DNA of 35,046 nt from a virus, in the IMG/VR virus record IMGVR_UViG_3300009085_000020, positions 1 to 35,046 of that record; one strand, written 5' to 3'. The translations under genes and the position numbers were made by a program. Positions within the stretch are counted from its first letter, which is position 1; the number at the start of each line of letters is the position of its first letter. Positions 16,683 through 34,087 of the stretch are shown piece by piece. Below the pieces are notes generated by a model. That model was not told the DNA's origin, did not search any database, and worked only from the letters and a program-made list of their open reading frames with translations.

Positions 16683-17136
16683 AAAAAACCACGAGAAGTA
16701 TATTAGAGCAAAACTGAGAAAAGCCGATGGACTAAATACGGAAAAAACAAAGAGAACTTGCTTTAGTTGCCATAAAGAGTTTGAAGCACTATCTCCTCGA
16801 CAAAAGTTTTGCACACCTTCTTGCAGACACAAGTTCCTATATCCAAACGATAAAGAAATACCTGACTTCCCAGAAACACTAAAGAATGTGAAAAGGATAA
16901 ACGTCAATTTTGTTCTTGAGCAGAAAACTCTCGATGACTTCTCTGAATACTTACATAGTATGAACTGGGCTTTTGAGGATTTTGTGCAACACCAAATATG
17001 TTTGGGAGCCCTTGACTGGAGAAACAAGAAGGCAAGAGATGAAATGAAAGAGAAAATAGAAAAAGACCTTGAGATTATGAGAGACTTTGAATATAAAACT
17101 AATCAAATAATAGAGGGTAATAACAATGACCATTGA
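16660..17136 (+). CDS. Zinc-ribbon protein of unknown function
   Basis: A 158-residue protein with a Cys4 zinc-binding pattern: C34 and C37 (TCFSCHKEF), then C51 and C55 (KFCTPSCRHKF), the spacing CxxC-x13-CxxxC. A basic, helical N-terminus precedes the finger. The C-terminal ~70 residues are helical and end in an acidic/Asn tail. The finger type is common in small phage proteins that bind DNA or RNA. It overlaps both neighbours (23 nt upstream, 11 nt downstream), so it is part of a tightly packed early operon. No specific function can be assigned. Confidence 0.75.
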   Translation: MQEKTKIEKNHEKYIRAKLRKADGLNTEKTKRTCFSCHKEFEALSPRQKFCTPSCRHKFLYPNDKEIPDFPETLKNVKRINVNFVLEQKTLDDFSEYLHSMNWAFEDFVQHQICLGALDWRNKKARDEMKEKIEKDLEIMRDFEYKTNQIIEGNNNDH

Positions 17137-17362
17137 CAAGTTTGCTGAGGATAAAGAGATGGACTTAGTGGATAAAAGGTTCTTCGGGGAGTTATGCTCT
17201 GCTGTTGCAGGGTATCTACACTATCCTAAGATTTATGTTCAAGAAAGCAATCTACGAATGAGAGATTGGTCAGAGAGATTACTCAACGAGTTGCTACCCC
17301 TAATGAAAGTATTCAAATCTCGCAGGGGAATGAAGAAGAGGGTAGTTATACGAAGAAAGTAA
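17126..17362 (+). CDS. Hypothetical early protein, basic C-terminus
   Basis: A 78-residue frame with GAGGGT upstream of ATG 17126. It begins MTIDKFAEDKEMDLVDKRFF, contains a hydrophobic helix (LCSAVAGYLHYPKIYV) and ends in a strongly basic tail (KSRRGMKKRVVIRRK). It overlaps the upstream gene by 11 nt and the downstream frame by 97 nt. The unusually long overlap with the next frame suggests either two overlapping genes or a ribosomal frameshift product. Not recognised. Confidence 0.6.
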   Translation: MTIDKFAEDKEMDLVDKRFFGELCSAVAGYLHYPKIYVQESNLRMRDWSERLLNELLPLMKVFKSRRGMKKRVVIRRK

Positions 17363-17502
17363 AAGGGCAACAACATACTAAGAATGAAGTTATTTGGCTG
17401 CTGAAGAATGCCGGAAAACACATCAGTGTTGCTAATCTATTCGCCGCAATGCCGGGCTGTTATTCTTCGTTTGCTTCACCTAAGAAGAAGGAGACACAAT
17501 GA
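17266..17502 (+). CDS. Hypothetical protein, possible winged-helix, TTG start or frameshift product
   Basis: Up to 78 residues from a TTG at 17266. The C-terminal half (HTKNEVIWLLKNAGKHISVANLFAAMP) looks like a small helix-turn-helix/winged-helix segment. No ATG exists in frame. The stop overlaps the next gene's ATG (ATGA), a sign of real coupled translation. The candidate ribosome site before TTG (GAGAGA) is weak, so the product might also arise by frameshifting from the gene at 17126. Its coding status is likely; its start is not settled. Confidence 0.5.
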   Translation: MVREITQRVATPNESIQISQGNEEEGSYTKKVKGQQHTKNEVIWLLKNAGKHISVANLFAAMPGCYSSFASPKKKETQ

Positions 17503-17615
17503 ATGCTCTGCTAATAATAAGTTTATCTCTGAATGGTGCTTATCTACTAATCACTGCGCTTGCTATTTGGGCTTATCGTCTTGATAAGAAAAAGAAGATT
17601 TGGTCAAAAAACTAA
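17499..17615 (+). CDS. Small single-pass membrane protein
   Basis: A 38-residue frame with a strong AAGAAGGAG ribosome site, overlapping the previous stop by four bases. Residues 3-26 form one hydrophobic span (ALLIISLSLNGAYLLITALA), followed by a positively charged tail (RLDKKKKIWSKN). This predicts an N-out/C-in inner-membrane peptide. It is the only clear small transmembrane protein in the genome. It could be a holin-like or superinfection protein, but nothing beyond the topology supports that. Confidence 0.7.
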   Translation: MNALLIISLSLNGAYLLITALAIWAYRLDKKKKIWSKN

Positions 17616-17653
17616 ACAGATAAGTAGCATAATTGTTATTGTGAAAAAGACGG

Positions 17654-17698
17654 GAGAGCAAAGATTATTCCTGGCAAGGCGATAACACCTTTGCTCTC
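17654..17698 (+). terminator. Hairpin 1 of three after the early genes
   Basis: A 10-bp perfect stem GAGAGCAAAG / CTTTGCTCTC with a 25-nt loop, followed by TTCTTTTATG. It is a likely intrinsic terminator on the plus strand, ending the operon that begins at 16521. The long loop, which itself contains CCTGGCAAGG, is larger than usual and may be structured. Confidence 0.6.
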
Positions 17699-17722
17699 TT
17701 CTTTTATGCATAATTTTATTTA

Positions 17723-17762
17723 AGAGATAAGAAATAAAACTTACCCTTTATTCCTTATCTCT
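17723..17762 (+). terminator. Hairpin 2 of three
   Basis: AGAGATAAG pairs with CTTATCTCT. After one mismatch AATAAA pairs with TTTATT, with an 8-nt loop. A T-rich tail (CTTTCTTT) follows. It is terminator-like on the plus strand and lies 24 nt after hairpin 1. Confidence 0.55.
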
Positions 17763-17770
17763 CTTTCTTT

Positions 17771-17808
17771 GGGCTAACCAAATGGGTAAGATTTGGTTAG
17801 CCCTTTTT
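17771..17808 (+). terminator. Hairpin 3 of three, strong intrinsic terminator
   Basis: A perfect 13-bp stem GGGCTAACCAAAT / ATTTGGTTAGCCC with a 7-nt loop, followed by TTTTTG. It is a textbook Rho-independent terminator, yet the ribosome site of the next gene starts only a few bases later. It may act as a regulated terminator or attenuator in front of the replication genes. Confidence 0.75.
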
Positions 17809-17823
17809 GTTGAAGGAGTGTAA

Positions 17824-18003
17824 ATGGATAGTCAAGGAATAATAGATAGAGCGATAAAAGAACACCCAGAAATAAAAGAAGATATAGAAAAAGCATTGAA
17901 AATCTCTACTCCATTTAGAGTTTCTCTATCCTGTTTAAAACTGCGCCTAAATAAAGACATATCTATTTTTAGAGATACTATAAAGTCATTGCTAAAAGAA
18001 TAA
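17824..18003 (+). CDS. Small helical protein upstream of the helicase
   Basis: A 59-residue frame with GAAGGAG upstream of the ATG at 17824. It begins MDSQGIIDRAIKEHPEIKED and is helical, with a basic centre (CLKLRLNKD). Its stop codon forms part of the TAAGGAG ribosome site of the helicase gene, so the two are co-transcribed. A role as helicase partner or loader is possible from position only. Not recognised. Confidence 0.65.
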   Translation: MDSQGIIDRAIKEHPEIKEDIEKALKISTPFRVSLSCLKLRLNKDISIFRDTIKSLLKE

Positions 18004-18012
18004 GGAGTTAAA

Positions 18013-19125
18013 ATGGATGAAAAGATTACATTAGATGACTTCAAGAAAGCAGTAGAACAAAAAACAAACGACCAAAAAGAAAATAGAGTAATAGACATTG
18101 TAAAAGATATAGACGAATACCTAAAACACACAAGAGACGAACTTAAAGAAGAAAACTTTACTATAAGTGGATACGACAACTTAGATAAGTATTTGCTTGG
18201 TTGGAGAAAAAAGAGTTTATACACTCTTGTTGGAGGGGCTGGATTTGGGAAGAGTTTGTTCCTTTTAAATTTTGCTATACAAGCCGCCAAGCAAGGCAAG
18301 AATGTTATCCTATTCACATTAGAGATGGAGAAATATACTTACACCAGAAGAGCGTATTCTATTCTATTTGAAAAGCCGCTACAGAATATACTATTTATGG
18401 ATGAGAGCAAAATAAAAGAAAAACTTATTCTACACACTAAGCCAACAAGCATTACAAAGTTTGGGCGATTAAAGATTTTTGAGGGTGAGCCAAAAGAACT
18501 TTCTGTTTATGAAATGGCAAGAAACATAGAGCCAGACGACCAAATAGTAGTAGTTGATTATGCTGAACTATTGACAGCCGAGACAGATAGAAGAGATGCT
18601 TATTATTTAGAGATAAACGATATATTCTACCAACTAAAAGCAGTTGCTAAAATGTTAGACAAGCCAATAATAACTGCTGGACAAATGAATAGAGGCGGCC
18701 TTGGAGACAAGGGTGGAACTAAAGATTTCGTTGGACAACAACACGTTCAAGGTTCATTGGGAATAAACCAAATAAGCGATGTAGTATTATCAATAAAGCA
18801 AACTCCAGCAGACAAACAAAATGATGTAATTTGTTTAGATATAACTAAGAATAGAAGCGGCCCATCTTCTGTAGTTTTAGCATTTGACATAGAATATAAA
18901 TCTGGGAAAATAAAAGATGTTGGATTTCCAACTGGAGAAAGAATAGCAAAAGCAGTTAAGCCAAAGGACGGTAGAGATACAACAGATAAAGTAGTAGAAA
19001 AACCAGTGTATAATAAGAAAGGAGTTCAAACTGGTTATCAAACTGCCCCCTATGAGAAAGAAGACAAAGAATATAGTAAAGAAGAGTTAGAGGCAATACG
19101 TAAAGAAAATAGGAGGAAGTATTGA
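18013..19125 (+). CDS. DnaB-like replicative helicase
   Basis: A 370-residue protein that is mainly the RecA-like motor domain of the DnaB family. It lacks a full N-terminal primase-binding domain. Residues ~50-65 (ISGYDNLDKYLLGWRKKSLY) lead into Walker A GGAGFGKS (74-81). Next come FTLEMEKYTYTRRAYSIL, Walker B QIVVVDYAEL (about 178-187), the polar motif KPIITAGQMNRGG and the arginine-bearing DITKNRSGPSS. This order matches DnaB/gp41-type hexameric helicases that unwind the fork 5' to 3'. The C-terminus is a charged tail. The ribosome site TAAGGAGT is optimal. It overlaps the following RepO-like gene, forming a replication pair. Confidence 0.88.
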   Translation: MDEKITLDDFKKAVEQKTNDQKENRVIDIVKDIDEYLKHTRDELKEENFTISGYDNLDKYLLGWRKKSLYTLVGGAGFGKSLFLLNFAIQAAKQGKNVILFTLEMEKYTYTRRAYSILFEKPLQNILFMDESKIKEKLILHTKPTSITKFGRLKIFEGEPKELSVYEMARNIEPDDQIVVVDYAELLTAETDRRDAYYLEINDIFYQLKAVAKMLDKPIITAGQMNRGGLGDKGGTKDFVGQQHVQGSLGINQISDVVLSIKQTPADKQNDVICLDITKNRSGPSSVVLAFDIEYKSGKIKDVGFPTGERIAKAVKPKDGRDTTDKVVEKPVYNKKGVQTGYQTAPYEKEDKEYSKEELEAIRKENRRKY

Positions 19126-19457
19126 TGAAGTTGATTTTCCCACGACCAGAAACATTAGCAAGAGAAAGTGGAATAACTATGGTTCCCCATATCTTTTTCG
19201 ACAAAGTTATGTGTAATCTAAGTCATCCTACTTGGAAAGTATTGTGTGTGTTTATTAGAAAACTATATGGATGGCAAAAAGATGCGGACATTATCTCAGA
19301 GAGCCAAATCCACGATATGACTGGATTGGGTGAAAGGACTATAAGAAGGTCTATTAGCAGATTGCTGAAAGGTAGGTTTATATTGAGGCTGGGAGAACTT
19401 ACACCTAACGGTTGGAGATATAAACTAAACACGGACAAATGGATAACTCTACTATAG
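19125..19457 (+). CDS. RepO-like replication initiation protein, winged helix
   Basis: A 110-residue protein from ATG 19125 (TGATG overlap with the helicase stop, GGAGG upstream). MVPHIFFDKVMCNLSHPTWKVL followed by IISESQIHDMTGLGERTIRRSISRLLKG is the winged-helix signature of the lambda O-type N-terminal domain that binds the origin. It is about half the length of a full O protein and lacks the helicase-recruiting C-terminus. It may therefore act with the adjacent DnaB-like helicase directly. An origin with iterons was not found inside the gene. Confidence 0.8.
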   Translation: MKLIFPRPETLARESGITMVPHIFFDKVMCNLSHPTWKVLCVFIRKLYGWQKDADIISESQIHDMTGLGERTIRRSISRLLKGRFILRLGELTPNGWRYKLNTDKWITLL

Positions 19458-19460
19458 TGA

Positions 19461-19492
19461 TTTTTGAACGTAGCGAAAGCGAAGTTCAAAAA
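19461..19492 (+). terminator. Hairpin after the replication genes
   Basis: TTTTTGAAC pairs with GTTCAAAAA around a 14-nt loop that contains GCGAAAGC, a small GAAA-capped inner stem. It lies directly after the RepO-like stop codon. The A/T ends mean it could function as a terminator on either strand. No clear T-run follows on the plus strand, so strength is uncertain. Confidence 0.45.
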
Positions 19493-19517
19493 TATATATA
19501 CTATTGTATAGCGTATT

Positions 19518-19541
19518 TAGGCCTCCGGCAAATAGGCCTCC
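19518..19541 (+). repeat. Short direct repeat TAGGCCTCC
   Basis: TAGGCCTCC occurs twice, starting at 19518 and 19533, 15 nt apart, in the gap before the HNH gene. It could be a pair of protein sites. Two copies only, so the significance is low. Confidence 0.45.
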
Positions 19542-19565
19542 CCCTGAGTTTTAGAGGAAAAATCA

Positions 19566-19961
19566 GTGAGAGATAGAGCAAAGCAACGAGAATATAAGCG
19601 AAAGCGTTATCAACAACTCAAAGACGACGAGCGCTTCAAAGCAATGAATAGAGACAGAGTAAATCGTTATCATAAAACCGACAAGTGGGAGAAGTTATAC
19701 AACTCGGAGAAATATAAAGAGAATAGAAGAAAGTTATGGAGCGAAACATATTTTATTAAAGTTTCTCACAACGGTTATCAGTATTGGTATAAGGGAAACA
19801 AGAGATTGCATAGATTGATTTATGAGCGATATATTGGAAAAATACCTAAAGGGTTTGACATCCATCACAAAAATCACGATACTCTAAACAACTCTTTAGG
19901 TAATCTTATGCTTATTAAACATAGTGAGCATACTCGACTACACAAATTAGGAGAAATATAA
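19566..19961 (+). CDS. HNH endonuclease, free-standing homing type
   Basis: A 131-residue protein with a GTG start at 19566 and AGAGGAA upstream. The N-terminal half is a very basic helix (KQREYKRKRYQQLKDDER...). The C-terminal half holds the HNH core: RLHRLIYERYIGKIPKGFDI, then HHKNHDTLNNSLGNLMLI and KHSEHTRLH. These supply the His-Asn-His metal/catalytic residues and are typical of homing HNH enzymes. It is inserted between replication and glycosyltransferase genes and abuts the latter. It might mobilise itself or the group I intron at 33502-33731, which lacks its own nuclease. Confidence 0.85.
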   Translation: MRDRAKQREYKRKRYQQLKDDERFKAMNRDRVNRYHKTDKWEKLYNSEKYKENRRKLWSETYFIKVSHNGYQYWYKGNKRLHRLIYERYIGKIPKGFDIHHKNHDTLNNSLGNLMLIKHSEHTRLHKLGEI

Positions 19962-20732
19962 ATGGCACTAACAGAAGACGTAATAACTAAGAAAGCAAAG
20001 TATGAAATAGACCTTATGATTTGTTTGCCAGGTAGTGAATGGGACATCAATCAAGAAGTTTGCTTTGCAAGATTACAAGCGTGGCTAAATAACAAGGGTA
20101 TAAACTATATGGTGTCAAGAGAAGGTGGCAGCAATGTTTGCTTTGTCAGAGAGAGTTGCTTAGGGATACGAACTGAACAAGCCGTTAGCGAAGTAGGCGT
20201 CTTGACCAAGCCCTGGAATGGAGAGATTGACTATAAGCATATACTTTGGCTCGATAGTGATATAATCTTTGAGCCAGAGCAAGTTGGCTATTTGCTGGAA
20301 AGCGACAAATACATAGTAAGTGGTTTCTACAAGAAGGGCAAGGGAGTTTATACTTCTTCTCTATATCACAACGCTGATAACTCAGAAAAACTAAGAGCAA
20401 TGACAGACGAAGATTTTATAGTCCCCAGCGCTGAATACCAAATGGCGACTATGAATTATGGAACTGGTAATATAACAGAGCCCAAGAAAGAAGAAAGAAC
20501 TGGCCTAATAAGGTTGAAGACAAATGGGATGGGCTTTGTGCTATTCAAGAAGGGCGTATTCGAAAACATCCCAAGGCCTTGGTTTCAAACAACTACAATA
20601 GATTACGGTCAAGGCCAGAGATTTGTAGGTGAGGATACCTACTTCTTCTTAACTGCAGAGAAGTGTGGCTTTGAACTTTGGGGAGACCCACGTTGCAGAG
20701 TAAAGCATATGAAAAAGAGTTTGCTTTACTGA
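19962..20732 (+). CDS. GT-A type glycosyltransferase
   Basis: A 256-residue protein with a nucleotide-sugar binding fold. YKHILWLDSDIIFEP carries the metal-binding D-x-D (DSD at residues 98-100). The late RFVGEDTYFFLTAEKCGFELW is the acceptor-side ED motif, and the final RCRVKHMKKS gives the usual terminal His. This is the layout of small phage and bacterial GT2-like transferases. The acceptor is unknown. It could be modified phage DNA (no base-hypermodification genes were seen), virion protein or host surface sugar. The ATG at 19962 abuts the HNH stop, and a terminator at 20779 closes the unit. Confidence 0.8.
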   Translation: MALTEDVITKKAKYEIDLMICLPGSEWDINQEVCFARLQAWLNNKGINYMVSREGGSNVCFVRESCLGIRTEQAVSEVGVLTKPWNGEIDYKHILWLDSDIIFEPEQVGYLLESDKYIVSGFYKKGKGVYTSSLYHNADNSEKLRAMTDEDFIVPSAEYQMATMNYGTGNITEPKKEERTGLIRLKTNGMGFVLFKKGVFENIPRPWFQTTTIDYGQGQRFVGEDTYFFLTAEKCGFELWGDPRCRVKHMKKSLLY

Positions 20733-20778
20733 AAGATAAACAATGCATTATTCATTTCATTTATATACACTCCTATTG

Positions 20779-20804
20779 AGCCCCGAGAACACTCCCTCGG
20801 GGCT
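20779..20804 (+). terminator. Intrinsic terminator after the glycosyltransferase
   Basis: A perfect 9-bp stem AGCCCCGAG / CTCGGGGCT with an 8-nt loop, followed by TCTTGTTG on the plus strand. It closes the 17824-20732 unit. Confidence 0.75.
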
Positions 20805-20815
20805 TCTTGTTGTCT

Positions 20816-21073
20816 ATGAGTGAATATAAGAAAGCATTTACTATAGCCCTTCTTCAAGGGTGGAGTTGCTCTATCTGCTTGAATAGGGGCGAAGACGCTT
20901 TCACACATAAACTCATAGGTTGCACATTAGATAACCACGAGCCGCTACTGTCTGGCTACGAAGGCGTCAGACAACTACCCACCCTAAGATTATGCCCACT
21001 GTTTAGATTTGGCGAGCACAAAGACATTCTGCCAAACAACTCACCTAAACTCTTCAACAATAAACCCCTATAA
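20816..21073 (+). CDS. Hypothetical cysteine-containing protein (doubtful)
   Basis: An 85-residue frame from ATG 20816 with a CSIC pair and further Cys residues (LLQGWSCSICLNRGEDAF; LRLCPLFRFGEHKDIL). It begins only 12 nt after a terminator stem and has no visible ribosome site, so it would have to be leaderless or read from a read-through transcript. Composition looks protein-like, and no competing frame fills this 330-nt gap. Not recognised. Confidence 0.4.
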   Translation: MSEYKKAFTIALLQGWSCSICLNRGEDAFTHKLIGCTLDNHEPLLSGYEGVRQLPTLRLCPLFRFGEHKDILPNNSPKLFNNKPL

Positions 21074-21135
21074 TATAGAAGAAACTACAAGTTTCGAAAC
21101 CGTGGTATAGTGTATCTAAGAGGAGGAGACAACAA

Positions 21136-21330
21136 ATGGCAAAGAAGAACACTCTCAAGTATCGGCAGTTCAAGACGGCATACGGTGCAATCCTTGTTTA
21201 TGAAGATGACACCGTACAGTTCATCCCCAGCAATTGGGTTTCCGAGGCCAAGGGTTTCAATGACGACCTTGACTTTGACAACTTTGAAATTGCGGAACTG
21301 ATTGCCGAAGATGAGATAGAGGTAAAGTAG
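21136..21330 (+). CDS. Small acidic beta-rich protein, first gene of the array cassette
   Basis: A 64-residue frame with a very strong GAGGAGGAG ribosome site before the ATG at 21136. The N-terminus is basic (MAKKNTLKYRQFKTAYGAILV). The centre predicts strands (YEDDTVQFIP) and the C-terminal third is highly acidic (DDLDFDNFEIAELIAEDEIEV). It is followed at once by the first 5-nt-period array. Its size is close to that of ring-forming RNA-binding proteins such as TRAP, but the acidic tail argues for caution. No family recognised. Confidence 0.75.
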   Translation: MAKKNTLKYRQFKTAYGAILVYEDDTVQFIPSNWVSEAKGFNDDLDFDNFEIAELIAEDEIEVK

Positions 21331-21336
21331 AAACAA

Positions 21337-21386
21337 GGTAAGGTATGATATGGTGTGGTGAGGCTGGTCAAGTCCCGGCACGGGGG
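21337..21386 (+). repeat. Period-5 array A1 (10 units)
   Basis: Ten consecutive 5-mers in perfect register, each starting with G (units such as GGTAA GGTAT, ending GGCAC GGGGG). The array begins six bases after the stop codon of the 64-residue gene and runs directly into a GAAA-capped hairpin. Unit sequences vary while the 5-nt phase does not, so this is not a simple slippage repeat. Confidence 0.85.
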
Positions 21387-21404
21387 GCCAAGGAAACTTG
21401 GCCC
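21385..21404 (+). other. GAAA-tetraloop hairpin closing array A1
   Basis: A perfect 8-bp stem GGGCCAAG / CTTGGCCC capped by GAAA. The 5' arm starts inside the last array unit. No T-run follows, so it is not a clear terminator. The same design follows arrays B, C and D. Confidence 0.85.
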
Positions 21405-21422
21405 ACTTATTTAGGGTAGAAT

Positions 21423-21439
21423 AGTAGCCGTTGGCTACT
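21423..21439 (+). terminator. Weak hairpin between arrays A1 and A2
   Basis: A 7-bp stem AGTAGCC / GGCTACT with a 3-nt loop, followed by TTATATTAT. It may be a weak terminator or processing site. It lies about 10 nt before array A2. Confidence 0.4.
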
Positions 21440-21448
21440 TTATATTAT

Positions 21449-21498
21449 GGCGAAGCGCTGCCGGGCCTGTCAAGGCTTGGTATGGCGAGGCAAGGAGT
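21449..21498 (+). repeat. Period-5 array A2 (10 units), leads into a ribosome site
   Basis: Ten 5-mers in exact phase, eight starting with G (for example GGCGA, GGCTT GGTAT). The last two units, GGCAA GGAGT, form the ribosome-binding site for the ATG at 21504. An ATG at 21447 opens a frame through the array, but the array composition and the properly spaced site favour 21504. This is the only array without a following GAAA hairpin. Confidence 0.8.
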
Positions 21499-21503
21499 TT
21501 TCT

Positions 21504-22076
21504 ATGAAAACTATCTCATTCGTTCTAACTGGGACAAGGCCACTTATTCCTCATAATGGGCAGTTGGCCGACCCGCTGAACAAGTTCAGCAAGGCCTCTA
21601 AGTCAATCAGCGGAAAGAAGAATAAGACAGATGATGACTATGAGCAGTTGGCGAAACTTGAGTTTATGGGTAGTTTATACCTAAACGAAAACCTTGCTCC
21701 TTGTGTCCCAGGAGATAACGTAGAGGGAACTCTAAGGGAAGCCGCAAAGAAGAGTAAGAAGGGAAAGTCAGCCCTTAGTGGCATTATTTGCTCTGGTCTT
21801 TTCGACTTGGAATATAAGGGCAGCAAGAAGCCAGAGGAACTTTGGAAAGACAGAGAGAAGTTTGCTATCACTTGCGGAGTGAAAATCAAGAAGAGCAGGA
21901 TTATGAGAACTCGTCCAATCTTCAAGGAGTGGTCCTGCAAGGTTGAGGTCCAGTATAATGAGGGTCTTCTTAACCAGTCAGACGTTATCCAGTTTATGGA
22001 AGTTGCTGGTAAAGAGATTGGCCTTTGCGACTGGAGGCCTAAGTATGGTCTTTTCGACGCTAAGGTGGTGAAATAA
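21504..22076 (+). CDS. RAMP/Cas7-like phage protein of unknown function
   Basis: A 190-residue protein from ATG 21504 (AAGGAGT upstream, formed by the end of array A2). MKTISFVLTGTRPLIPHNGQ and ADPLNKFSKASKSISGKKNK open it. The middle has CVPGDNVEGTLREAAKKSKK and IMRTRPIFKEWSCKVEVQYN, and it ends AGKEIGLCDWRPKYGLFD. The ferredoxin-like strand order and the terminal glycine-bearing G-L-x-D-W-R-P-x-Y-G loop resemble RAMP/Cas7 RNA-binding proteins. Related hypothetical proteins are, to my knowledge, widespread in phages. It lies between arrays A2 and B, so it is a prime candidate to bind their RNA. The fold is inferred by eye, not proven. Confidence 0.7.
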   Translation: MKTISFVLTGTRPLIPHNGQLADPLNKFSKASKSISGKKNKTDDDYEQLAKLEFMGSLYLNENLAPCVPGDNVEGTLREAAKKSKKGKSALSGIICSGLFDLEYKGSKKPEELWKDREKFAITCGVKIKKSRIMRTRPIFKEWSCKVEVQYNEGLLNQSDVIQFMEVAGKEIGLCDWRPKYGLFDAKVVK

Positions 22077-22080
22077 ACCA

Positions 22081-22125
22081 GGCACGGTATGCCGAGGCAC
22101 GTTGCGTTGTGGTTAGGCAAGGGGC
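22081..22125 (+). repeat. Period-5 array B (9 units)
   Basis: Nine 5-mers, all starting with G (for example GGCAC GGTAT GCCGA, ending GGCAA GGGGC). The array starts four bases after the stop of the RAMP-like gene and ends in a GAAA hairpin. The start (GGCAC GGTAT) and end units match those of array C closely. Confidence 0.85.
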
Positions 22126-22144
22126 TCCCGGGAAACTGGGAGCC
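22123..22144 (+). other. GAAA-tetraloop hairpin closing array B
   Basis: A 9-bp stem GGCTCCCGG / CTGGGAGCC (one G-U pair) capped by GAAA. It overlaps the final array unit, and the ribosome site AGGAGAG of the next gene follows after about 8 nt. The stem sequence differs from the other hairpins while length and loop are kept. Confidence 0.85.
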
Positions 22145-22161
22145 AACTTTAGGAGAGTAAT

Positions 22162-22953
22162 ATGAAAAGAATGGTTGTAGTAAATGATACTCACTGTGGA
22201 AGTTATTTCGGCCTAACTCCCCCCGGATATGGCTTTAGCCAAGACACAGACGATGAGCGAGAAATAGCAATCAGTAAAACTACTGGTGCTATTTGGAACT
22301 TCTGGGAGAACACTATAGCAGCCCTGAATAAAGAAAAGCCAATAGACATTTTGCTTATGGACGGAGATATGATTGAGGGAAATGGAGAGAAGAATGGTGG
22401 AGTAGAGGTTTTCTATACCGACAGGATGAAGCAGGCAGAAATGGCTGCTAAAGCAATGAGTATAGTCGGGGCAAAGAAAAACATTCTTGTCTTCGGAACT
22501 CCTTATCATACGGGAACTGGGGAAAACTTTGAAGAGTGCTTGAGTAAGCATATGATTATACACTCTATGCACGATGCTCTTGACCTACGAATATACGACT
22601 TTATCTTCAACGTAAGACATAAGGTAAATAGCAGCAGCGTTCCCCACGGAAGAGCAACTGCCCTCGCGAAAGAGGCGGTTTGGAACTTACTTAAAGCAGA
22701 GAGGGAAACTGGAATAAAAGCAGATTTCATAATTAGAGCACACGTTCATTATCACATTGCTTTATCAGATGGCTATCAAACTTGTATAGCAAATCCCTGT
22801 ATGCAAGCGCCAGGGTCGAGATATGGTAAGAGGATTTGCTCTGGGATAACTGACATTGGCTTTTCTGTATTTGATATAGACAAGGAGGGAGTAAAGTGGG
22901 ACACGAAACTGTTTCAACTAAAATACTCTCCAGAACAACTTCTAAGCCTGTAG
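22162..22953 (+). CDS. Calcineurin-like metallophosphoesterase
   Basis: A 263-residue enzyme with the full metal-site order of the family: VVNDTHCGSYFG (D-x-H, residues ~9-11), LLMDGDMIEGNG (GD motif, ~66-75), LVFGTPYHTGTGEN (in place of the usual GNHE) and IIRAHVHYHIAL (GHxH-type, ~195-202). It is preceded by array B and a GAAA hairpin, with AGGAGAG before the ATG at 22162. Such enzymes cut phosphomonoesters or phosphodiesters, including nucleic acids and cyclic nucleotides. GTPYH replaces the canonical GNH(E/D), which may alter specificity. Its 3' end overlaps the next gene by 58 nt. Confidence 0.85.
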   Translation: MKRMVVVNDTHCGSYFGLTPPGYGFSQDTDDEREIAISKTTGAIWNFWENTIAALNKEKPIDILLMDGDMIEGNGEKNGGVEVFYTDRMKQAEMAAKAMSIVGAKKNILVFGTPYHTGTGENFEECLSKHMIIHSMHDALDLRIYDFIFNVRHKVNSSSVPHGRATALAKEAVWNLLKAERETGIKADFIIRAHVHYHIALSDGYQTCIANPCMQAPGSRYGKRICSGITDIGFSVFDIDKEGVKWDTKLFQLKYSPEQLLSL

Positions 22954-23120
22954 TATTTGTTCTGCCGTTTTCTAAGAGTTATTATGATAAGATTACTGAA
23001 GATTTAGATACTAATATTTGTATTGGCTTTCAGTCGTCTAATTATACAAAGAGGGAGATGAAATCTACTAAGGTAGATGTCCCAACTCTTGAGAAGACAA
23101 GAAGGGTTTTTGATAAATAA
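22896..23120 (+). CDS. Hypothetical 74-residue protein overlapping the phosphoesterase gene
   Basis: A GTG-started frame with a strong AAGGAGG ribosome site located inside the phosphoesterase gene (58-nt overlap). The protein begins MGHETVSTKILSRTTSKPVV, has a hydrophobic strand (VVFVLPFSKSYYDKI) and ends in a basic region (LEKTRRVFDK). It is the last plus-strand gene and array C starts six bases after its stop. No family recognised. A partner of the phosphoesterase is plausible from the coupling only. Confidence 0.65.
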   Translation: MGHETVSTKILSRTTSKPVVFVLPFSKSYYDKITEDLDTNICIGFQSSNYTKREMKSTKVDVPTLEKTRRVFDK

Positions 23121-23126
23121 AAACAT

Positions 23127-23176
23127 GGTTAGGTATGGCACGACGTGTTAAGGTGTGCCTATGCAAGGCAAGGGGC
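23127..23176 (+). repeat. Period-5 array C (10 units)
   Basis: Ten 5-mers in perfect phase, nine with G at the first position (for example GGTTA GGTAT GGCAC; ending GGCAA GGGGC). Follows the last plus-strand gene and leads directly into a GAAA hairpin. Confidence 0.85.
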
Positions 23177-23193
23177 CCATAGAAATATGGGCC
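23174..23193 (+). other. GAAA-tetraloop hairpin closing array C
   Basis: A perfect 8-bp stem GGCCCATA / TATGGGCC with a GAAA loop, overlapping the final array unit. Followed by ATTTATTT, so it may also slow or partly stop transcription before array D. Confidence 0.85.
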
Positions 23194-23200
23194 ATTTATT

Positions 23201-23260
23201 TGCACGGTGCGGCACGGCGGGGCTCGGCGCTGTATGGCGCGTTCTGGCACGTCGCGGCTT
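23201..23260 (+). repeat. Period-5 array D (12 units), no gene attached
   Basis: Twelve 5-mers, ten starting with G and the rest with T (for example GGTGC GGCAC GGCGG). It is the most GC-rich array and has no gene between it and array C. It runs into a GAAA-capped terminator. Confidence 0.8.
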
Positions 23261-23262
23261 TT

Positions 23263-23290
23263 AGCCCTTAGGAAACTAAGGGCTTTTTTG
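23263..23290 (+). terminator. GAAA-capped intrinsic terminator closing array D and the plus block
   Basis: A perfect 9-bp stem AGCCCTTAG / CTAAGGGCT with a GAAA loop, followed by TTTTTTG. It has the same design as the hairpins after arrays A1, B and C but with a T-run, and it ends the plus-strand transcription unit. Confidence 0.9.
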
Positions 23291-23304
23291 TTTGCACAAA
23301 AAGA

Positions 23305-23326
23305 AGGGCTGGATAAGACCAGCCCT
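23305..23326 (-). terminator. Terminator of the late (minus-strand) block
   Basis: An 8-bp stem AGGGCTGG / CCAGCCCT with a 6-nt loop. On the minus-strand RNA it is followed by TCTTTTTG, a standard intrinsic terminator. It faces the plus-strand terminator at 23263-23290, so the two blocks converge here. Confidence 0.8.
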
Positions 23327-23348
23327 CGTGGAGTATAAATGGATATAA

Positions 23349-23433
23349 GGTGTCTGAGCGTTAGGACACCCAACATAGATAGCGGGGCTCCGACCAACCT
23401 ATCACAGTAAGCCCTCACCCCACTATTCTATGT
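23349..23433 (-). ncRNA. Structured 3' end of the late transcript (candidate RNA element)
   Basis: Between the last late gene and its terminator, minus-strand RNA can form two stems. One is a 15-bp stem between 23418-23433 and 23373-23387 with one bulged base. The other is a 6-bp stem GGTGTC / GACACC at 23349-23354 and 23365-23370. One pair is G-U on the minus-strand RNA but A-C on the plus, which favours the minus strand as the structured product. It may be a stability element or a small RNA released from the 3' end. Confidence 0.5.
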
Positions 23434-23441
23434 CGTGTGTC

Positions 23442-23741
23442 TTACGTGCCCTCTACTTTTATATCCTTCTGACAAGCCCTACCCGGAGCAACTCTTCCGT
23501 CGTTGAATATGACATAACTCCATAGCGTCCAAATACCGTTTTCGTCGATTGACGTTGTAGCCAAATCGTAATAGATACGTGTTGGATATACAGGGTCTAT
23601 CGCTGCAGTCCAAGTGCCTGTTGCACCACTCGGCTTCTTATACTTTATCTGCAACGTAGTCGCTGTTGCTAAACTAATCTTCGTGTCCAGTCGTATTTTC
23701 AACGCTGTCTGATTTTTGTAAATGTAATCTTCTTGTGCCAT
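23442..23741 (-). CDS. Small beta-sandwich virion protein, BppU-like
   Basis: A 100-residue protein from ATG 23741, which overlaps the stop of the giant gene (TAATGG) and has AAGGTGG upstream. MAQEDYIYKNQTALKIRLDT, then TTLQIKYKKPSGATGTWTAA and IWTLWSYVIFNDGRVAPG match a common small phage structural protein with an immunoglobulin-like sandwich. These are often found near tail fibre genes and resemble the N-terminal part of baseplate upper proteins. It probably attaches to, or accompanies, the giant protein. It is the last gene of the late block. Confidence 0.7.
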   Translation of the reverse strand: MAQEDYIYKNQTALKIRLDTKISLATATTLQIKYKKPSGATGTWTAAIDPVYPTRIYYDLATTSIDENGIWTLWSYVIFNDGRVAPGRACQKDIKVEGT

Positions 23742-26700
23742 TATGCTACCCACCTTATTTGTGAAATCATATCTACTACATTAGAAACTATACTCTCAAG
23801 GTCCGCTGTAAGAGTTATATTGCTTATAGCGTCGAATACTAAGTTTATTTCTGAGACGCCTTCAAGGACTTCTATCTCTGATACGGGTGGCGTTGATAAT
23901 ACTATTGTGCCACTACCACTATAAACATAATGCTTGCTTACGGTTCCCGTAGCGGCCCCAGAAAGCACTATTGAGCCACCAACTATAGAAATAGATATAT
24001 GTTTTGTGTATAACTCATAAGTCGCTGCACCACCTAACTGTAGTGCGCCAAGTGTATGCGTGCTTACGTGTATTGAGCCAGATGCGTTACCAGATAAAAG
24101 AATGGTGCCGGTGGATGTTGAACTATACTTTTTCGATAGGAGATAAGTTGAGGAACCCGATATGGCAATCGGTCCGGCACCATCGTATAATACTATTTTA
24201 CTATATTGATAAGTCGCCCATCTACCCAACCTCACTGTCCCAGAGGCAGTGTAGTATCTATAACCAAACTTGTAAGCGACTGCTGCACCGCTAAGTGTTA
24301 TGCCACCAGATACAAATCTATATCTATAATTGTTGCTGTATTCTTCATAGGTTGCAGCACCAGAAAGTGTAATGCTACCGCTTACAGTCGGATAATACTT
24401 TCTGAGTTGCTTAGTTGTTGCAGCACCAGATAGAGTAATGCTACCACTCTCTATTACTGGCTCATACTCTGGCCCAGCCCAAGTATAGACAGTGTGGCTC
24501 AATCTTATTATGCCAGAGCCAGTGTAATAATGAGCAGAAGTTCCGCCAGTGTCTGCCACGCCAGATAGATATATCCAACCTCTACCTCTAAAGAACCTAT
24601 CTCTTACTGTCTCTGAAATACCAGATAGAGTTGCAGACCCTGAAGCATACCACCTAAATGAGGTTTGACCTATGCCTATACCGTTTATCTGTAAGCCACC
24701 AAGCATTGAAGAAACGAATACTCTTGAGTGAATAGTAATAGAAGCGCCAGATAGAGTAATAGAGCCAAATGTCGCATTTGATAAGAAGGAATAAGTGTAT
24801 GACTTAGTTGCTGCACCCGATAGAACAACCTGTCTGTCGTGGCCCCTTACTGAATAGGTGAAGTTGGGGATATAGTAATAAGAAGCACTACCAGAAGTGT
24901 GTATTCCACCGCTTACGTTTCTGTAAATCCAAATGTCTTTCAGATAGTAATAATGTGGATTTCCATATAATCTAAGTGTGCCAGTGGTTGTGTAATAAGT
25001 GTAAGCACTGCCACTTAGATAAATCATTGAAACATAGAAGTAAGGTGTGTAATATACAGAGACCCACATTGGTGGAACTGCACCGCTTAGAGTTATTGTT
25101 CCAGAAGAAGACGGTAGATAAACTAACTGCTTGCCACCAATACCAGATAAGTAAATAGAGCCACCAGCATTACCAAATCTATCTCTAACAGTTTCAGAAG
25201 CGCCACTAAGTAGAATACTTCCACCAGTTATAGAAGAGATATAGTCGTTGCTATATTCTTCATAAGCAGCGGTATCTCCGAGTGTTATATTACCAAGTCC
25301 GTCATATAAGTAAGTCCAAGTGTAATCACAGATGGCGCTGCCGGAGAATAGTATGGCACCTGCAGCAATGTATGAGATTTCAATGGTATTTTGAGCAGCG
25401 CCACTTATTATTACACTACCACCAGAATTTCCAAATCTGTCTCTGACTGTTTCGCTTATACCACTTAGTAATATAGAACCACTTTCAATAGAGCCGATAT
25501 AATCGTTGCTGTATTCTAAGTAAGAAGAAGCACCAGATAGTATTACTGAGCCACCAACTATTGAGGAGATATAGTCATTTGAGTATTCGAGATATACAGC
25601 AGAGCCAGATAATCTTGCTGTGCCAGACCCTCTGTAGTTTATAGAGAATGTCTTTGCTGCCGCTCCGCTTAGTGTTATACTACCAGAAGCGATATAGACG
25701 TGGCCAAGTGTGCTTCTTGCTACTCCAGATAGCAGAATAGAGCCACCACTTACTGTTGCTATATGGTGTTTAGAATATAATAGATAAGAAGCAGCACCAG
25801 ATAGAGTTATAGTTCCACTCGTATAGATTATTCTATCTACTTCTCTTATAGAAGTTCCAGATAGAGTTGTAGAGCCACTGCCGCTTGTTATTCTATGGAC
25901 TTCTACGCTTGCTGTGCCAGATAGATAAGCAGAGTGTGGAGGTTGAGCCCAATAAGAGAATGGAGAAGTATCAGCAACACCTCCCATTGTTATTGAGCCA
26001 TCTGCCCAATACTGTTGCTGTAGAGATATAGAGCCAACCTTTGTTCTTACATAATAAGGAGCAGCGTCATTATCATAAGCAATTACAAACTCTGTGTCTG
26101 TTATGTTTGACGTCTCTGGCAACATAACATAACTGTCGTCGAAGACATAACTATTTTCAAAATAAACTCTGTCGCCATTATGGACTATACCAACTCTTGT
26201 TCTGCCAGTGAAGTTAGTTGTATAAGGATAGGTGAGAGTATCTACATAGTTGATAACAAAGTAATAGTTGCCATATATGTTATCCATATAGGCCATTGTG
26301 AATGTGCTTATTCTATTAGTTTCACTGAATTTATATTCTGGCCCAAAGGTTATTACATTACCACTTGAAACTGTTCCTATTCTTACATATCCATCTTGGT
26401 AAGCGTAAGTGCCACTCCAAGCACCAGTGTGTCTATAAGCAACTGCAAAGTGTGTGTCGTCTATTCTGATAACGTTTGTGAAGTCAGTTTTCTTTGTTTC
26501 GTCAGAAGCAGAAGTTCCCCTCTTGAAGTCATAAGGTAAGCCGTTGCTTATCTCGTCTCCGCTTACTACAGTTGCAATATAACAAGAGCCACCATAACCA
26601 TAATCGCTGTCTTTGTTTGAAGAAGCAACTACAAAGTGAGTGGCGTCAAGAGCAGCAATACTTGGATAAGTTGCATTAGATAGAGTTCTTCCACTTGGGT

Positions 26701-29700
26701 TAGGTGCTACAGTTCCACTATGTGGGAAGTTTATAGCACTACCAGAAACTACTCCGATTATGCTCTTCTGGTCGCCTATCTCTTTATATGCAACCGCTAC
26801 GAGAGTAGAACTTAGTGTGTCTATACAATAATCGCTTGGATAAGTAGCACCGCTGCTACCAAACTGCCCCTCTTCTCCCCAAGTAATCTCGTCGCCATTT
26901 GCTATAGTTCCAACCTGTGCAGAGGTGTGGTAATCTGTAGTTGGGTAATTTCCATATCTGTGAATAGCAACTATTTTGTCAGAAGCCATTCTTGTAATAA
27001 GAATGTCTTTCTTGTGTGTATCACCACCAGTTGTAATATATTCTTCACCATAAGAAACTGAAGTGCCAGATACTGTGCCGATTATACCAATAGTGTTCTG
27101 TAAGCCAGTAGTTGGGTAATCTTCATTAGTCCAAGAAACTGCTATATGAGTATCATCTAATCTAACAACATCGTGCTGACCAGTTATTTCTGGGTCGAAG
27201 ATATATTCTCCACCCCAACCTATCGGGTTAGAAGATATACTATGACCAGATAGAGTTATGACACCCGATATAACAATGTTGATTGTTAGATAAGAAGCAG
27301 CGTGTCCATATAACTCTGCACCACCAGAAGGATTACCAAATCTATCTCTGACAGTCTGTGCTATACCACCAAGCAGTATAGTTCCACTTGTTGAGGTTAT
27401 TCTATTGACTTCTCTGATTACTGTGCCAGATATAGTAATAGAGCCACTACCAGATTTGCTAAATACCCTCGTATGAGTAGTAGTTGCTTCTCCATAGAAT
27501 GTTATATTACCAGAAGTTTCTCTCTCTAATACTAAGGTCTTTGCTGCTGCTGAAGCAAACGTCAAACTACCATAACCACTATAGATATAGAAGCAAGCGG
27601 TCTGCCAGTTTATTCTCCCAACTACTGCTGTTCCCTTGCTACCATTCGAGGCGTCAAGGTAAGAAACTACATAGTCAGTGTCGTTCATTTTCAACGCTTT
27701 GATATAGTTAGTTGTTCCAGCGTTGAATACATATTCTGAAGCAAATGATACTGTGCTACCACTTATAGTTCCAACTATGGTTGTGCCGTAAGAAGAGTTG
27801 TTGTCGTCTCTATAACAAATAGCAAAGTGAGTGGCGTCTAAAGCAAAGACCGACGTATAGGTTGCTAAGCCAGTATTGAAAGTAGTTGCCGAGTTGAAAG
27901 ATATAGAGTTTCCACTTATTGTTCCTATTACTGCTCTACCGTGTGTGCTGGTGAAAGCAACAACATAGTGTGTGCTGTCTAATAGGTAAGTAGATACTCC
28001 AATAGAATTCCCCGAATAAACTACATATTCTGAACCAAAGGATAAGGTCTTTCCAGATAGTGTTGCAACTATAGAAGTTGGATAACCATTACTGTCTGTA
28101 TAAGTAATAACAAAGTGTGTGCTGTCTATTTTTATGGCAGAGATATAGTTTGTTGAAGCAGCATTGAAAACATATTCATCGCCAAACTCTATCTCATTGC
28201 CGCTTATTACTGCTGCTCTTGCTGTTCCATAAGAAGAGTTGCCACCATCAGTATAACAGATTACTATGTGTGTGCTGTCTAAACTTATTGTCCATTGGTT
28301 AGAAGTAGTTGCTTCATTAAAGTTATACTCACTTCCATAACTGATAGACCTATCTACTGCTATATTACCAACTATACATTGGCCATAACTTGAAGATGTT
28401 GTATCTTGATAAGCGATAACAAACTTAGAAGAAGAAAGCATAGCAACAGAAGCAGAAGTAGTTGTGCCACTGTTGAATACATATTCTGAGCCAAATGCTA
28501 TATCGTCTATATTAGTTATAGTTCCAACTACTACTGTTCCTCTTGAAGAGTTTCCACCATCTCTGAATGCGACTATAAACTCGTCGTTATCTATTGGTCC
28601 AGAAGAGTTATGGTAAGCGATTGACTGTGCGTTGAATAAATACTCATCTCCGTAAGTGATTGAGCCGTCGCCAGTCAGCAACGACTTAGCAGAAGATACT
28701 CCAACTCCCCAAGTTTGTAGATAACCACTACCTGTATAAGCAAAGCCAAAACTATGTTCTGCTGCACCAGATAAGTGTAAATCGCCCTGTGTTGGCAGTG
28801 CTATATCTATAAAGTTTATAGAAGAGCCAGATAGAGTTATAGTTCCACTTGGTCTATAACCTGTTTCTATCTCAAATACAACAGTGCCAGATAGAACTAT
28901 AGTTCCACCAACAGTTGGAGATACTTCTATAATAAAGTCAGTGTAGTTTCCAGATAGAGTTGCAGAGCCAGAAGATATAAACTCATAGCCCTGATAATAT
29001 ACAGCAGAGCCAGATAGCGTTATAGACCCAGAAGAGTTATAGGTTATGCTGCTTATAGATAGTGCATTACCACTAAGTAATAGTTGCCCATTAGCATCAT
29101 ATAGCGACACTATAGTGAAGTTTGCTGCTCCACTTAGCGTTATATTACCAGCACTTTCAAATACAAACTCAGCACTACCTAACTCACAGATTGCAGACCC
29201 ACTGAACGTTATATCACCACTTGTATTGAACCTTATATCTACGAATGTATCTACGAGACCATATAATAGAATACTTCCGCTGCAAGTTGGCTCTACATTT
29301 ACTTCAGATACATATTCACCAGTAAGTATAACTGTTCCAGATACGTCTCCAAAATACACGACAGTGTAAATGCAAACTGAAGTGCCAGATAGCGAGACGT
29401 ATCCATCTGCAGAATAAGCATAATCATTAGCAAACTCACAGTTGCTGCTCCCAGTTAGAATAGCAGAGCCGCTTGTTTCAAACTCTAAGTTTGCTTCGGC
29501 TGTGTATTCTCCCGATAAGATTATCGACCCTGTTGCTAAACAAGAATACTGGTTTTCTATATTAGAAGATACGCTGCCAGATAGAGTTATGGTTCCACTT
29601 GCTAAATAACTAAAGTCGGGAGCATATTCACAAATTGAAGAGCCAGATAGAGTTGCTAACCCTTCGCCAGAATAACTATACTCATTGGTGTAAGAATGTG

Positions 29701-32700
29701 GCGCCTCGCCATTTACGACAATGACGCCATCGCCATTGAAGATATAAGAGTTGGTTTGAGATATAGTCGCGGCGCCACTGAGTTCAACGAACCCATCAGA
29801 ACCAAATATAATCTCTATTACAAATAAGGCGGAGTTAGATAAAGTTAGATAACCTTGTGCTTCATATTCAAAGTGTGTTTCTGATAAACTACATATAGCA
29901 GACCCACTGAATGTTATATCTCCAGTTGTATTGAATACTACTTCTACAAATGTATCTACAAGTCCAAGAAGAGTAATACTTCCAGACGACTGATAGACGA
30001 CGTTTATATCAAATGTAGTTTCGCCAGATAGAGTAATGCTACCAGAAGTAAGTGCCGATAACTCTATAGTAGAATAAGAAGAGCCAGTTAATAAGAGCGC
30101 CCCGCTTGTAAGAGGAATATAATCAGAGGTATAACTAAGCAGGGCGCCGCCAAATAAAGATATAGGACCACTACCAGAATAATCAAACTCTCTACTATGC
30201 TCACAACTTGAAGCACCAGATAGTAGAATACTACCAGTTGTTGTGGTAGAATAATCACTCAATTGCTCACAATCTGAAGACCCAGAAATAACTATTGAGC
30301 CAGAAGCAAGTGTTGATAACTCTATAGAAGAAGTGGCTCCACCTGATAATACTGGGCCCCCTTCTGTGTTAGTATAGTTGTTTTCTAATATAAAGGTAGA
30401 GCCACCAGATATAGTTATAGTTCCAGAAGAAGAGTATTCATAATACTCTATTGCATATTCATATAGAGCGCTTCCACCAAGCGTTATATTACCAGAGGTA
30501 ATCTCTATAAAGGAGACCTCAGTTTCGCAAGTCGCTTCACCAGATAGAGTAATTGTCCCAGAAGAAGCAATGACTACTTCAACTTCAGAAGAGTATGTTC
30601 CAGATAGAGTTGCTGTTCCAGAAGAATAAAGTATTACTTCAACTTCAGAAGTATGACCACCAGTTAGAGCAACGTTTGCTGCTTGTGCTTCACTAATAGA
30701 TACATTGTCTATGTAGTAATATAGTCCAGAAGAAGAACTCGGCTGATAACCAGCAGAAGCAACCATAGAAGTAGTTCCAACGGGAACAGTAAAATCTATT
30801 GTTATGGTTTGCCAAGCATCATAAGTATTTGCGGCTGACGATATAAAGAAAACTTCTTCAGAGCCAATATAGCACTGAACACCAACTATTATCTCTGAAC
30901 CAGTTATACCAGAAGCAGAGGGGATATATATTCTCTCACTAAATCTATAAGTTTTTCCAATCTCAAGAGGAGATAGTTCTGCAGTTTGAGGGTCGTTCAA
31001 TAATAAGTAAGAGAAACCAGTTTGAGTAGTTTCTAATCTATAAGAATAACTGCCACTATCTACATGGTCAGTGCTTCTTGCAACGTCTAATCCAACAATA
31101 AAACCAGTTGCTCCAAATAGATATGGAGCATCGTTTTCTTCACAATTTCCACCAACTACTAAGTTTTCTCCAAATATACCACTGCCAGATATAGTATAAA
31201 CAAACTCTATAGTTGTTATAGCACCTGAGCCCAACGTTATAGTGCCAGAGGCTGTAATAGTTATAGTGTTTTCTACTTCTGTTAGACAAGTGCCAGATAA
31301 GATTATAGAACCGGAGGTTGCTATTGATAACTCTATAGTATAAGTTGAAGACCCAGATAGAGTTGCCGTTCCATCTGTAGAATACAAATAGTCATTGCCG
31401 TATTCATAAGAAGAAGAGCCAGATAGAGTTATACTACCTGAGTTGATATACTCTACAACGACATAATACTCATTTGCAGAAGACCCAGATATAGTTATAC
31501 TACCTGAGCAACTATAAGCAAATGAACCCTCACACTCACATATTATTTCTCCAGATAGAGTTATACTACCTGAGCAGTCATAAGTGTAAATGTTTTCCGC
31601 TATTGTTATAGAAGACCCAGATAAGATTATTGACCCTGTTGCTTCATATATCCATTGAGGGTCAAAGTATTCTATGGCTGAAGAGCCAGATAAGATTATG
31701 CTACCAAGGCCAGTCCAATATAATGGACCAAGAGTAAATGCTGCTCCACCTAAAGTAAAAGCAGAGCCAGTAGCATCGTATAAATACAACACACCGCTGT
31801 ATTCATATAACGCGGCTGCGCTTACTAATAAGGAACCACTTGCAGTATATGGATAGACCTTTGAGTAAGCAGTGCTTGATATACCAGATATGACTAAGGG
31901 ACCAGCACCTGCATACGCTACCTCATAGTTAGTGCTTGCGGTTCCAGATATAGAGACAGAGCCAGAAGTGGCTCTGGAGAAATCTATAGTTTTATTTGCT
32001 GCACCAGATAAAGCAAATGAGCCAGCAGCCGTCTTAGAATAGTTATTAGTATAACTCTTAGCAGCAGAACCACTTGCCGTAGTTGAGCCAGAGGTGGCCC
32101 TGGTGAAAGATATAGTTTTGCTTGCTGCCCCGCTTGCTGTTGAAGAACCTGAGCCAGAGTAAGTTCCACCTGCTACTGCTTCTGCCCAATCTACTGTTCC
32201 ATATTGAGCGTAAGTGTAATCACCAACCTTTGAATATAGAATAATAATATGTGTATCATCTAAAAATGCTATGTGGTGATAAGCGGTTCTGTCTGTCGAG
32301 ATTTCTACATTTGCGTCAAAAGAAACTGTATTAGTGCTACTAATCTTTCCTCTGACTATAGATTTACTATAAGTAGTTGTGGCTCTATTCAAGAATACTA
32401 AGAAATCTTTTTTATCAGATGCTCTTGTTGCAGCGTGGGAACCATTTACATAGGGAAGTTGAGTAGAGAAAGCAACTGCAGTTCCAAATGTAGGAGTGTT
32501 AGTGCTTATTGTTGCTGCTATAGATTTATTTACTGCTGTAGAAGTATAGCCAGTAAATGTAATCATTAGTTTTCCACTGTCTATATCTACAGGAGTTATA
32601 TTCCTTGCACCAGATAATACATCTACATTTGTGGCATCTACTAAAGTTTCTGAGCCAGAAGTAATAGTAGTTCCACTGCTTACTGTGTGAATAAGACATT

Positions 32701-33501: not shown

Positions 33502-33731
33502 CCAGCAATTTGTTATCGTAATGGCTCTTTATCCATTACATCTTATGGTTTCTTTTCCCATAAGTTCAGACTATATCATAACCTCTTTCGAGGTCCCCGG
33601 CGTTCGTGAGAGGATTATTTCGCCTCTTAGTCGTTGAGCCTTCCCTCTTGTTAGAGGGCTTGGTTGCTGATTGCCATTTCAGGTTTCCAGCAATTAACCA
33701 GGTTTTCATAATTTCTTATGCCGCCATTTCC
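33502..33731 (-). ncRNA. Group I self-splicing intron, ~230 nt, no internal nuclease
   Basis: The minus strand shows the group I core in order. P1 is CCGUUG / UGGCGG with a GAAA loop and a U-G pair at the 5' splice site. P2 is CATAA-GAAA-TTATG. The P4-P6 region is TTGCTGGAAACC...GGCAATCAGCAACCAAGCC. The P7 strands are GGCTCAACGACTA (33628-33640) and GATATAGTCTGA (33566-33577), with a CCTC-GAAA-GAGG stem between them. Two further hairpins (CTTATGG / CCATAAG and GTAATGG / CCATTAC) follow as P9-type stems. Splicing joins exon 1 to an in-frame exon 2. Without splicing the protein would end LEMAA. The core matches subgroup IA phage introns such as T4 td. Confidence 0.9.
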
Positions 33732-34087
33732 AACGGTATAGCGTAGGGTCCATCAGTAAATCTTTCCGCCCAAAGCAATCCAGTGCCTGCACTGTCGGTT
33801 ACATAGTATCCATAGATACTTGCTTCCGCGCCAGTGAACGTGAATGTAACCTGAGCGTGGGAACCAGTAGTTGTTCCAGTAGAAGTTACTACTGTCCAGT
33901 TGGTTCCAGTTAGAGCGTTTGCAGTATAACCGTTGCCCGTGCTTTCTGTGTAAGAAGCAAGAGCATCACCCTCTGCGGGTGTTCTGTTATTGGTGAAAAG
34001 TTTTAACTTTACGTCTGAAGCCGTAGCAAAGTTTAGCATATACTTCAACATAAGAACTTCACCAACATCAGGGACTAATAGCGCCAT
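33732..34087 (-). CDS. Exon 1 of a small tail-associated virion protein
   Basis: Starting at ATG 34087 (optimal GGAGG upstream), this exon encodes about 118 residues: MALLVPDVGEVLMLKYMLNF, then LKLFTNNRTPAEGDALASY and YGYYVTDSAGTGLLWAERFT. This is a conserved small phage structural family with unknown exact role, often near tail fibre genes. The upstream ATG at 34141 lacks a ribosome site and is rejected. The unspliced frame runs 12 nt of intron and stops at 33716. Spliced to exon 2 it gives a protein of about 132 residues. Position after the receptor-binding protein suggests a tail or fibre accessory. Confidence 0.8.

Follow-up and report, generated by a model that had tools for sequence, protein, structure and literature searches.

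Five intergenic pentamer arrays around a Cas7-like gene very probably form a divergent VIPR system of a tailed phage

What reads five short arrays of G-anchored pentamers that lie between the genes of a virus? The arrays are found in the 35,046 nt of IMG/VR record IMGVR_UViG_3300009085_000020 (positions 1 to 35,046), hereafter called the window, for which no nucleotide match to known phages was found. A preliminary description of this DNA compared the arrays with the RNA sites of TRAP and of Cas7-type filaments, considered regulation or RNA packaging, and knew of no named element of this kind. Our analysis makes it very probable that the region 21337–23284 is a VIPR (Viral Interference Programmable Repeat) system of a tailed phage, in which the arrays are vrRNAs guiding a Cas7-like Vipr protein to DNA. 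The arrays thus have a name, and they are therefore neither the substrate of a TRAP-like ring nor elements of RNA packaging, a role for which we found no support. According to the main text of the VIPR preprint of April 2026 (PMC13142463), such systems consist of a Cas7-like Vipr protein and of vrRNAs with alternating GGY and NN motifs, arranged as 9–16 tandem YNNGG (GGY-NN) repeats. In the complex of Vipr and vrRNA it is the NN letters, and not GGY, that base-pair with double-stranded DNA; one base is skipped between dinucleotides, and the outcome is repression (PMC13142463).

The five arrays (Table 1) keep an exact 5-nt period from 21337 to 23255 without any slip of phase, as first described, and are unmatched elsewhere on either strand. 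When all 50-base stretches on both strands of the whole window were scanned, every ten-unit stretch with G at nine or ten of its unit starts fell inside or at the edges of the five arrays (starts 21322–23211, plus strand), and the minus strand contained none. Scoring for GGY units gave exactly five arrays above a score of 12, with the runner-up at 8.3. The coordinates in Table 1 refer to clean units; each array extends by up to three further units into the hairpin or ribosome site that follows. The arrays are indeed short, but the earlier counts of 9–12 pentamers included such bases, and the clean units number 8–10 (array B has 8, or 9 with the unit that enters its tail). Two positions need correction: A2 does not directly follow a stop codon but begins more than 100 nt beyond it, within the leader of the gene behind it, and D comes after the tail of C.

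Table 1 Features of the VIPR locus and its surroundings (window coordinates).
Feature	Coordinates	Strand	Remarks
vrRNA A1 repeat tract	21337..21381	+	9 GGY-NN units; guide letters AA AT AT GT GA TG AA CC AC
A1 tail hairpin	21385..21404	+	8 bp stem GGGCCAAG/CTTGGCCC, GAAA loop, terminator-like
Second small hairpin between A1 and A2	21423..21439	+	terminator-like
Array A2	21449..21498	+	9 units (clean 21449–21493) and GGAGT; guide letters GA GC CG CT AA TT AT GA AA
Weak hairpin holding vipr start codon	21496..21512	+	AGTTTTC-TAT-GAAAACT, −4.9 kcal/mol, z −1.84
vipr	21504..22076	+	Cas7-like RAMP protein, 190 aa, PHROG_4652; between arrays A2 and B
vrRNA B repeat tract	22081..22120	+	8 units; guide letters AC AT GA AC GC GT TA AA
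B tail hairpin	22123..22144	+	9 bp, GAAA loop
Metallophosphoesterase-like protein	22162..22953	+	candidate accessory (vap) gene; putative function
Small ORF	22896..23120	+	74 aa, unknown; precedes array C
vrRNA C repeat tract	23127..23171	+	9 units; guide letters TA AT AC GT AA GT TA AA AA
C tail hairpin	23174..23193	+	8 bp, GAAA loop, terminator-like
vrRNA D repeat tract	23206..23255	+	10 units; guide letters GC AC GG TC GC AT GC CT AC GC
D tail hairpin	23263..23284	+	9 bp, GAAA loop, then T run; terminator-like end of plus-strand gene block

Among the 45 clean units of the five arrays, G occupies position 1 in 41 and position 2 in 33, and position 3 is a pyrimidine in all 45, a feature that the preliminary description had missed. 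Positions 4 and 5 are nearly random (entropy 1.75 and 1.83 bits). The unit is therefore GGY-NN, although 16 of the 45 units depart from strict GGY, which we count against the VIPR reading. The view that the arrays are not a coding repeat is upheld. Compared with shuffled sequence, G is followed by G at a distance of five in clear excess in A1 and A2 (z 4.2) and in C and D (z 3.3), as predicted; the signal is weak for B alone (z 1.2), where a distance of ten gave z 2.4. For each of the three gaps, none of 1000 dinucleotide-preserving shuffles attained the best segment score. This result argues against a structural or packaging repeat that has no dedicated protein and against a low-complexity stretch that arose by chance, which the simple period and the G-rich DNA might otherwise bring to mind. 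The gene-array association described below, in which a search for arrays alone led to vipr loci, further disfavors such an origin, and we give it almost no credence.

The protein encoded between the arrays is 34.6% identical to its homolog in phiSUSP1 over the full length. Against the deposited structure of SUSP1 Vipr (36pp) it gave a full-length phmmer match with an E-value of 4.9e-34, and the profile of the Vipr family matched the same entry with 6.7e-42. The AlphaFold model has a pLDDT of 97.4, and its best matches in the PDB are nearly all Cas7/Csm3-type subunits of type III CRISPR systems (E 6e-6; Z 11.7 to Csm3). In the glycine-rich G-loop G169, G173, R178 and G182 are nearly invariant. 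In our tree the window protein and that of SUSP1 fall into one clade of 27 rows with 100/100, a figure that concerns clade membership and not the place inside the clade. Of the two protein analogies drawn previously, the Cas7-type reader is thus borne out by homology and fold, while the TRAP-like ring is not, the units being GGY and not G/UAG. PHROG_4652, a phage family without an assigned function, has relatives in 129 phage records, which extend from Felix O1-like phages of enterobacteria to actinophages.

The association of this family with arrays is conserved. A first relative (43% identical) has five GGC-NN arrays immediately upstream. In phiSUSP1, the model phage of the preprint, the PHROG_4652 gene is preceded by one array and followed by three, in agreement with the VIPR locus of this phage as reported in the main text (PMC13142463). 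A blind DNA pattern of seven GGC at 5-nt steps retrieved at least 120 stretches from viral contigs, most of them with several arrays on one strand. PHROG_4652 was present in 36 of the first 50 array contigs compared with 0 of 14 control genomes, and a profile built in the present analysis found a vipr gene in 83 of 120 array loci. For the 91 vipr loci that comprise these 83 and eight fetched by gene, the nearest array lies at a median distance of 82 nt, and on the same strand as vipr in 89. Related phages therefore do carry phase-conserved arrays beside one conserved gene family, as the search proposed earlier was meant to reveal. The VIPR reading is directly supported by this association together with the arrays, their GGY-NN code, the homology and fold of Vipr and the hairpin tails.

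Like the VIPR of Escherichia phage SUSP1 (PMC13142463, 36pp), as far as described in the main text, the window locus combines a full-length Vipr homolog with GGY-NN arrays on both sides of vipr, on the same strand and with a structured 3′ tail. In contrast to SUSP1, it lacks vap1 and a metallophosphoesterase-like gene follows instead, a vrRNA is located between vipr and the next gene, and the units are fewer (8–10) and less regular. The actinophages LittleE, MakoManhole and Trine have a Vipr of the same 27-row clade and arrays around vipr, but differ from the window by tails resembling the T arm of tRNA and by the presence of a vap1 relative. The RAMP fold and the G-loop are shared with Cas7/Csm3 of type III CRISPR-Cas, as is presumably the use of one subunit per RNA step. 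Unlike type III systems, the window has tandem 5-nt GGY-NN repeats and not spacers with repeats. A CRISPR array was rejected, as no identical direct repeats with unique spacers occur at 17000–23500, and Cas domains were found neither in ten genes with Pfam nor in seven genes with PADLOC. TRAP (MtrB, 11 (G/U)AG sites) resembles the locus in its 5-nt RNA step, in its roughly 10 units and in the vicinity of terminator-like hairpins. However, a TRAP ring needs (G/U)AG triplets, with which the invariable third-position pyrimidine is incompatible, and the protein linked to the arrays has a Cas7-like fold.

Four of the five arrays are followed by a structured 3′ tail, a hairpin of 8–9 bp with a GAAA loop and a fold z of −3.4 to −3.9. 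The four tails have a common shape and four different stem sequences, and three of them are terminator-like. In the SUSP1 clade, according to the main text of the preprint, the tail is invariable and contains a pseudoknot (PMC13142463). Among 360 arrays examined, only one outside the window has a long stem capped by a GAAA loop. Tails of variable stem were seen a second time in contig L077 with arrays around vipr on the minus strand of the locus, where each of five VIPR arrays is followed by a TCA-hairpin-TTGAC tail with stems that differ yet are complementary and with loops other than GAAA. Tails resembling the tRNA T arm (GGTTCGANYCC) follow 12 of the 360 arrays, at a background of 0.003 per 105 nt, and belong to six VIPR loci (L128, L129, L132, L010, L027 and L112) that include the three actinophages named above. 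ARAGORN reported tRNA-like genes in two of the six, and these observations suggest maturation by tRNA enzymes.

Array A2 has no tail of the GAAA kind. The AAGGAG ribosome site of vipr falls within its last units, and 5 nt separate the end of the array from the vipr start. Arrays that end at most 70 nt upstream of the vipr start were seen in 19 of 93 loci, and several loci have arrays that extend into the probable ribosome site of genes other than vipr; it is therefore possible that A2, tail-less and overlapping the ribosome site, lets Vipr control its own translation. These positions, together with the terminator-like hairpins that the remaining arrays precede and with the lack of targets for the window guides (see below), would also suit a purely cis-regulatory function of all arrays, in which Vipr or a TRAP-like protein binds the mRNA and controls the neighboring genes by attenuation or ribosome blocking, without any guiding. 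However, the guide letters are near-random and no two arrays share the same set, a pattern expected for guides but not for a constant binding site; GGY does not match the triplet of TRAP, and the vrRNAs of SUSP1 were demonstrated to direct DNA binding (PMC13142463, main text). We regard a cis-regulatory function of the whole set as very improbable; for A2 alone it could hold.

The gene behind array B may encode an accessory protein of VIPR. Its product matches Pfam Metallophos below threshold (E 0.013), with the motifs DxH, GD and HxH visible. It has a match in only 1 of 50,697 phage records, yet relatives directly adjoin vipr in the array contigs L094 (43% identity) and L063 (38%), and this suggests the accessory role, although both contigs were selected by their arrays and come from collections other than the phage-record set. 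An exclusive link to VIPR was rejected, as the methanogen virus vir555 has the gene with no vipr match in its record and no arrays in the stretch read. The structural model is of low confidence (pLDDT 51), and a profile search of the PDB returned nothing convincing. In VIPR of type II, the SUSP1 type, vipr is accompanied by vap1, a DNA-binding gene. A profile of the SUSP1 gene after vipr, which we took as vap1, found no vap1 in the window (best E 1.3); the same profile matched 28 loci at E ≤ 1e-3, among them many of the close relatives. Further downstream, an ORF of 3202 aa on the minus strand (23741–33349) contains many short repeats of the SGSITLSG type and probably encodes a tail fibre or surface protein of great length. 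Upstream of this ORF and near genes for minor tail proteins, a group I intron (RF00028) was detected at 33542–33741 on the minus strand (70 bits, E 1e-15).

By analogy with the published work on SUSP1, from which RNA binding, DNA targeting, the 1-nt skip and repression are carried over, the VIPR system of the window may function as follows. The arrays would be transcribed as vrRNAs with 8–10 GGY-NN repeats and a hairpin tail behind them, probably together with the operon because no promoter of their own was seen at the window arrays. Several Vipr copies, presumably one per pentamer, would hold GGY and display NN, and the NN letters would pair with double-stranded DNA under omission of one base between dinucleotides (N1N2xN3N4x...). 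The complex would then repress transcription at a target most likely located in a competing phage or a satellite; satellites, prophages and other competing elements are the natural VIPR targets given in the main text of the preprint (PMC13142463).

Exact scans of viral contigs with the 8-unit cores of the five guides under the 1-nt skip rule gave 9 (D), 17 (A1), 22 (B), 16 (A2) and 26 (C) matches. About 20 per guide are expected by chance, as estimated from the letters specified and an assumed collection size, so that none of the five cores revealed a target above chance, and the units flanking the matched cores showed no clear excess over 1 in 16. With all 10 units, guide D had three matches in a genome collection of 257 billion bases. 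Within the window no self-target exceeded shuffled guides. Read as N1N2x codons, most guides do not impose a stop codon, an agreement of little evidential weight. About 13–14 of the 22 contigs matching the core of guide B (among L159–L177) do so on a conserved ETIDTAVYN/K motif, in the wobble-correct frame, in one family of phage proteins of about 300 aa. We do not claim this motif as the target of guide B, as the unit preceding the core mismatches and the coincidence may be due to chance.

In conclusion, the locus is a divergent member of VIPR, a kind of system already named and explained by the preprint (PMC13142463); some of its traits are missing from the main text of that preprint, and the supplement may hold some of them. 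We speculate, as a tentative and rather unlikely proposal taken in all its parts, that it represents a distinct subtype in which Vipr binds the tail-less leader array A2 and stops its own translation whenever vrRNA is scarce, each vrRNA is both terminated and matured within the operon by a GAAA hairpin of variable stem, and a metallophosphoesterase nuclease replaces vap1 and turns target binding into cutting. VIPR has been put forward as ancestral to CRISPR and as a minimal programmable DNA binder. The window locus broadens the known variety of VIPR by the lack of vap1, other tails, another neighbor and an array within the leader at the start of vipr. The array search indicates that VIPR-like loci are common in environmental phages, and a DNA pattern of the arrays alone offers a cheap route to such loci, even where Vipr is too diverged for simple sequence searches.
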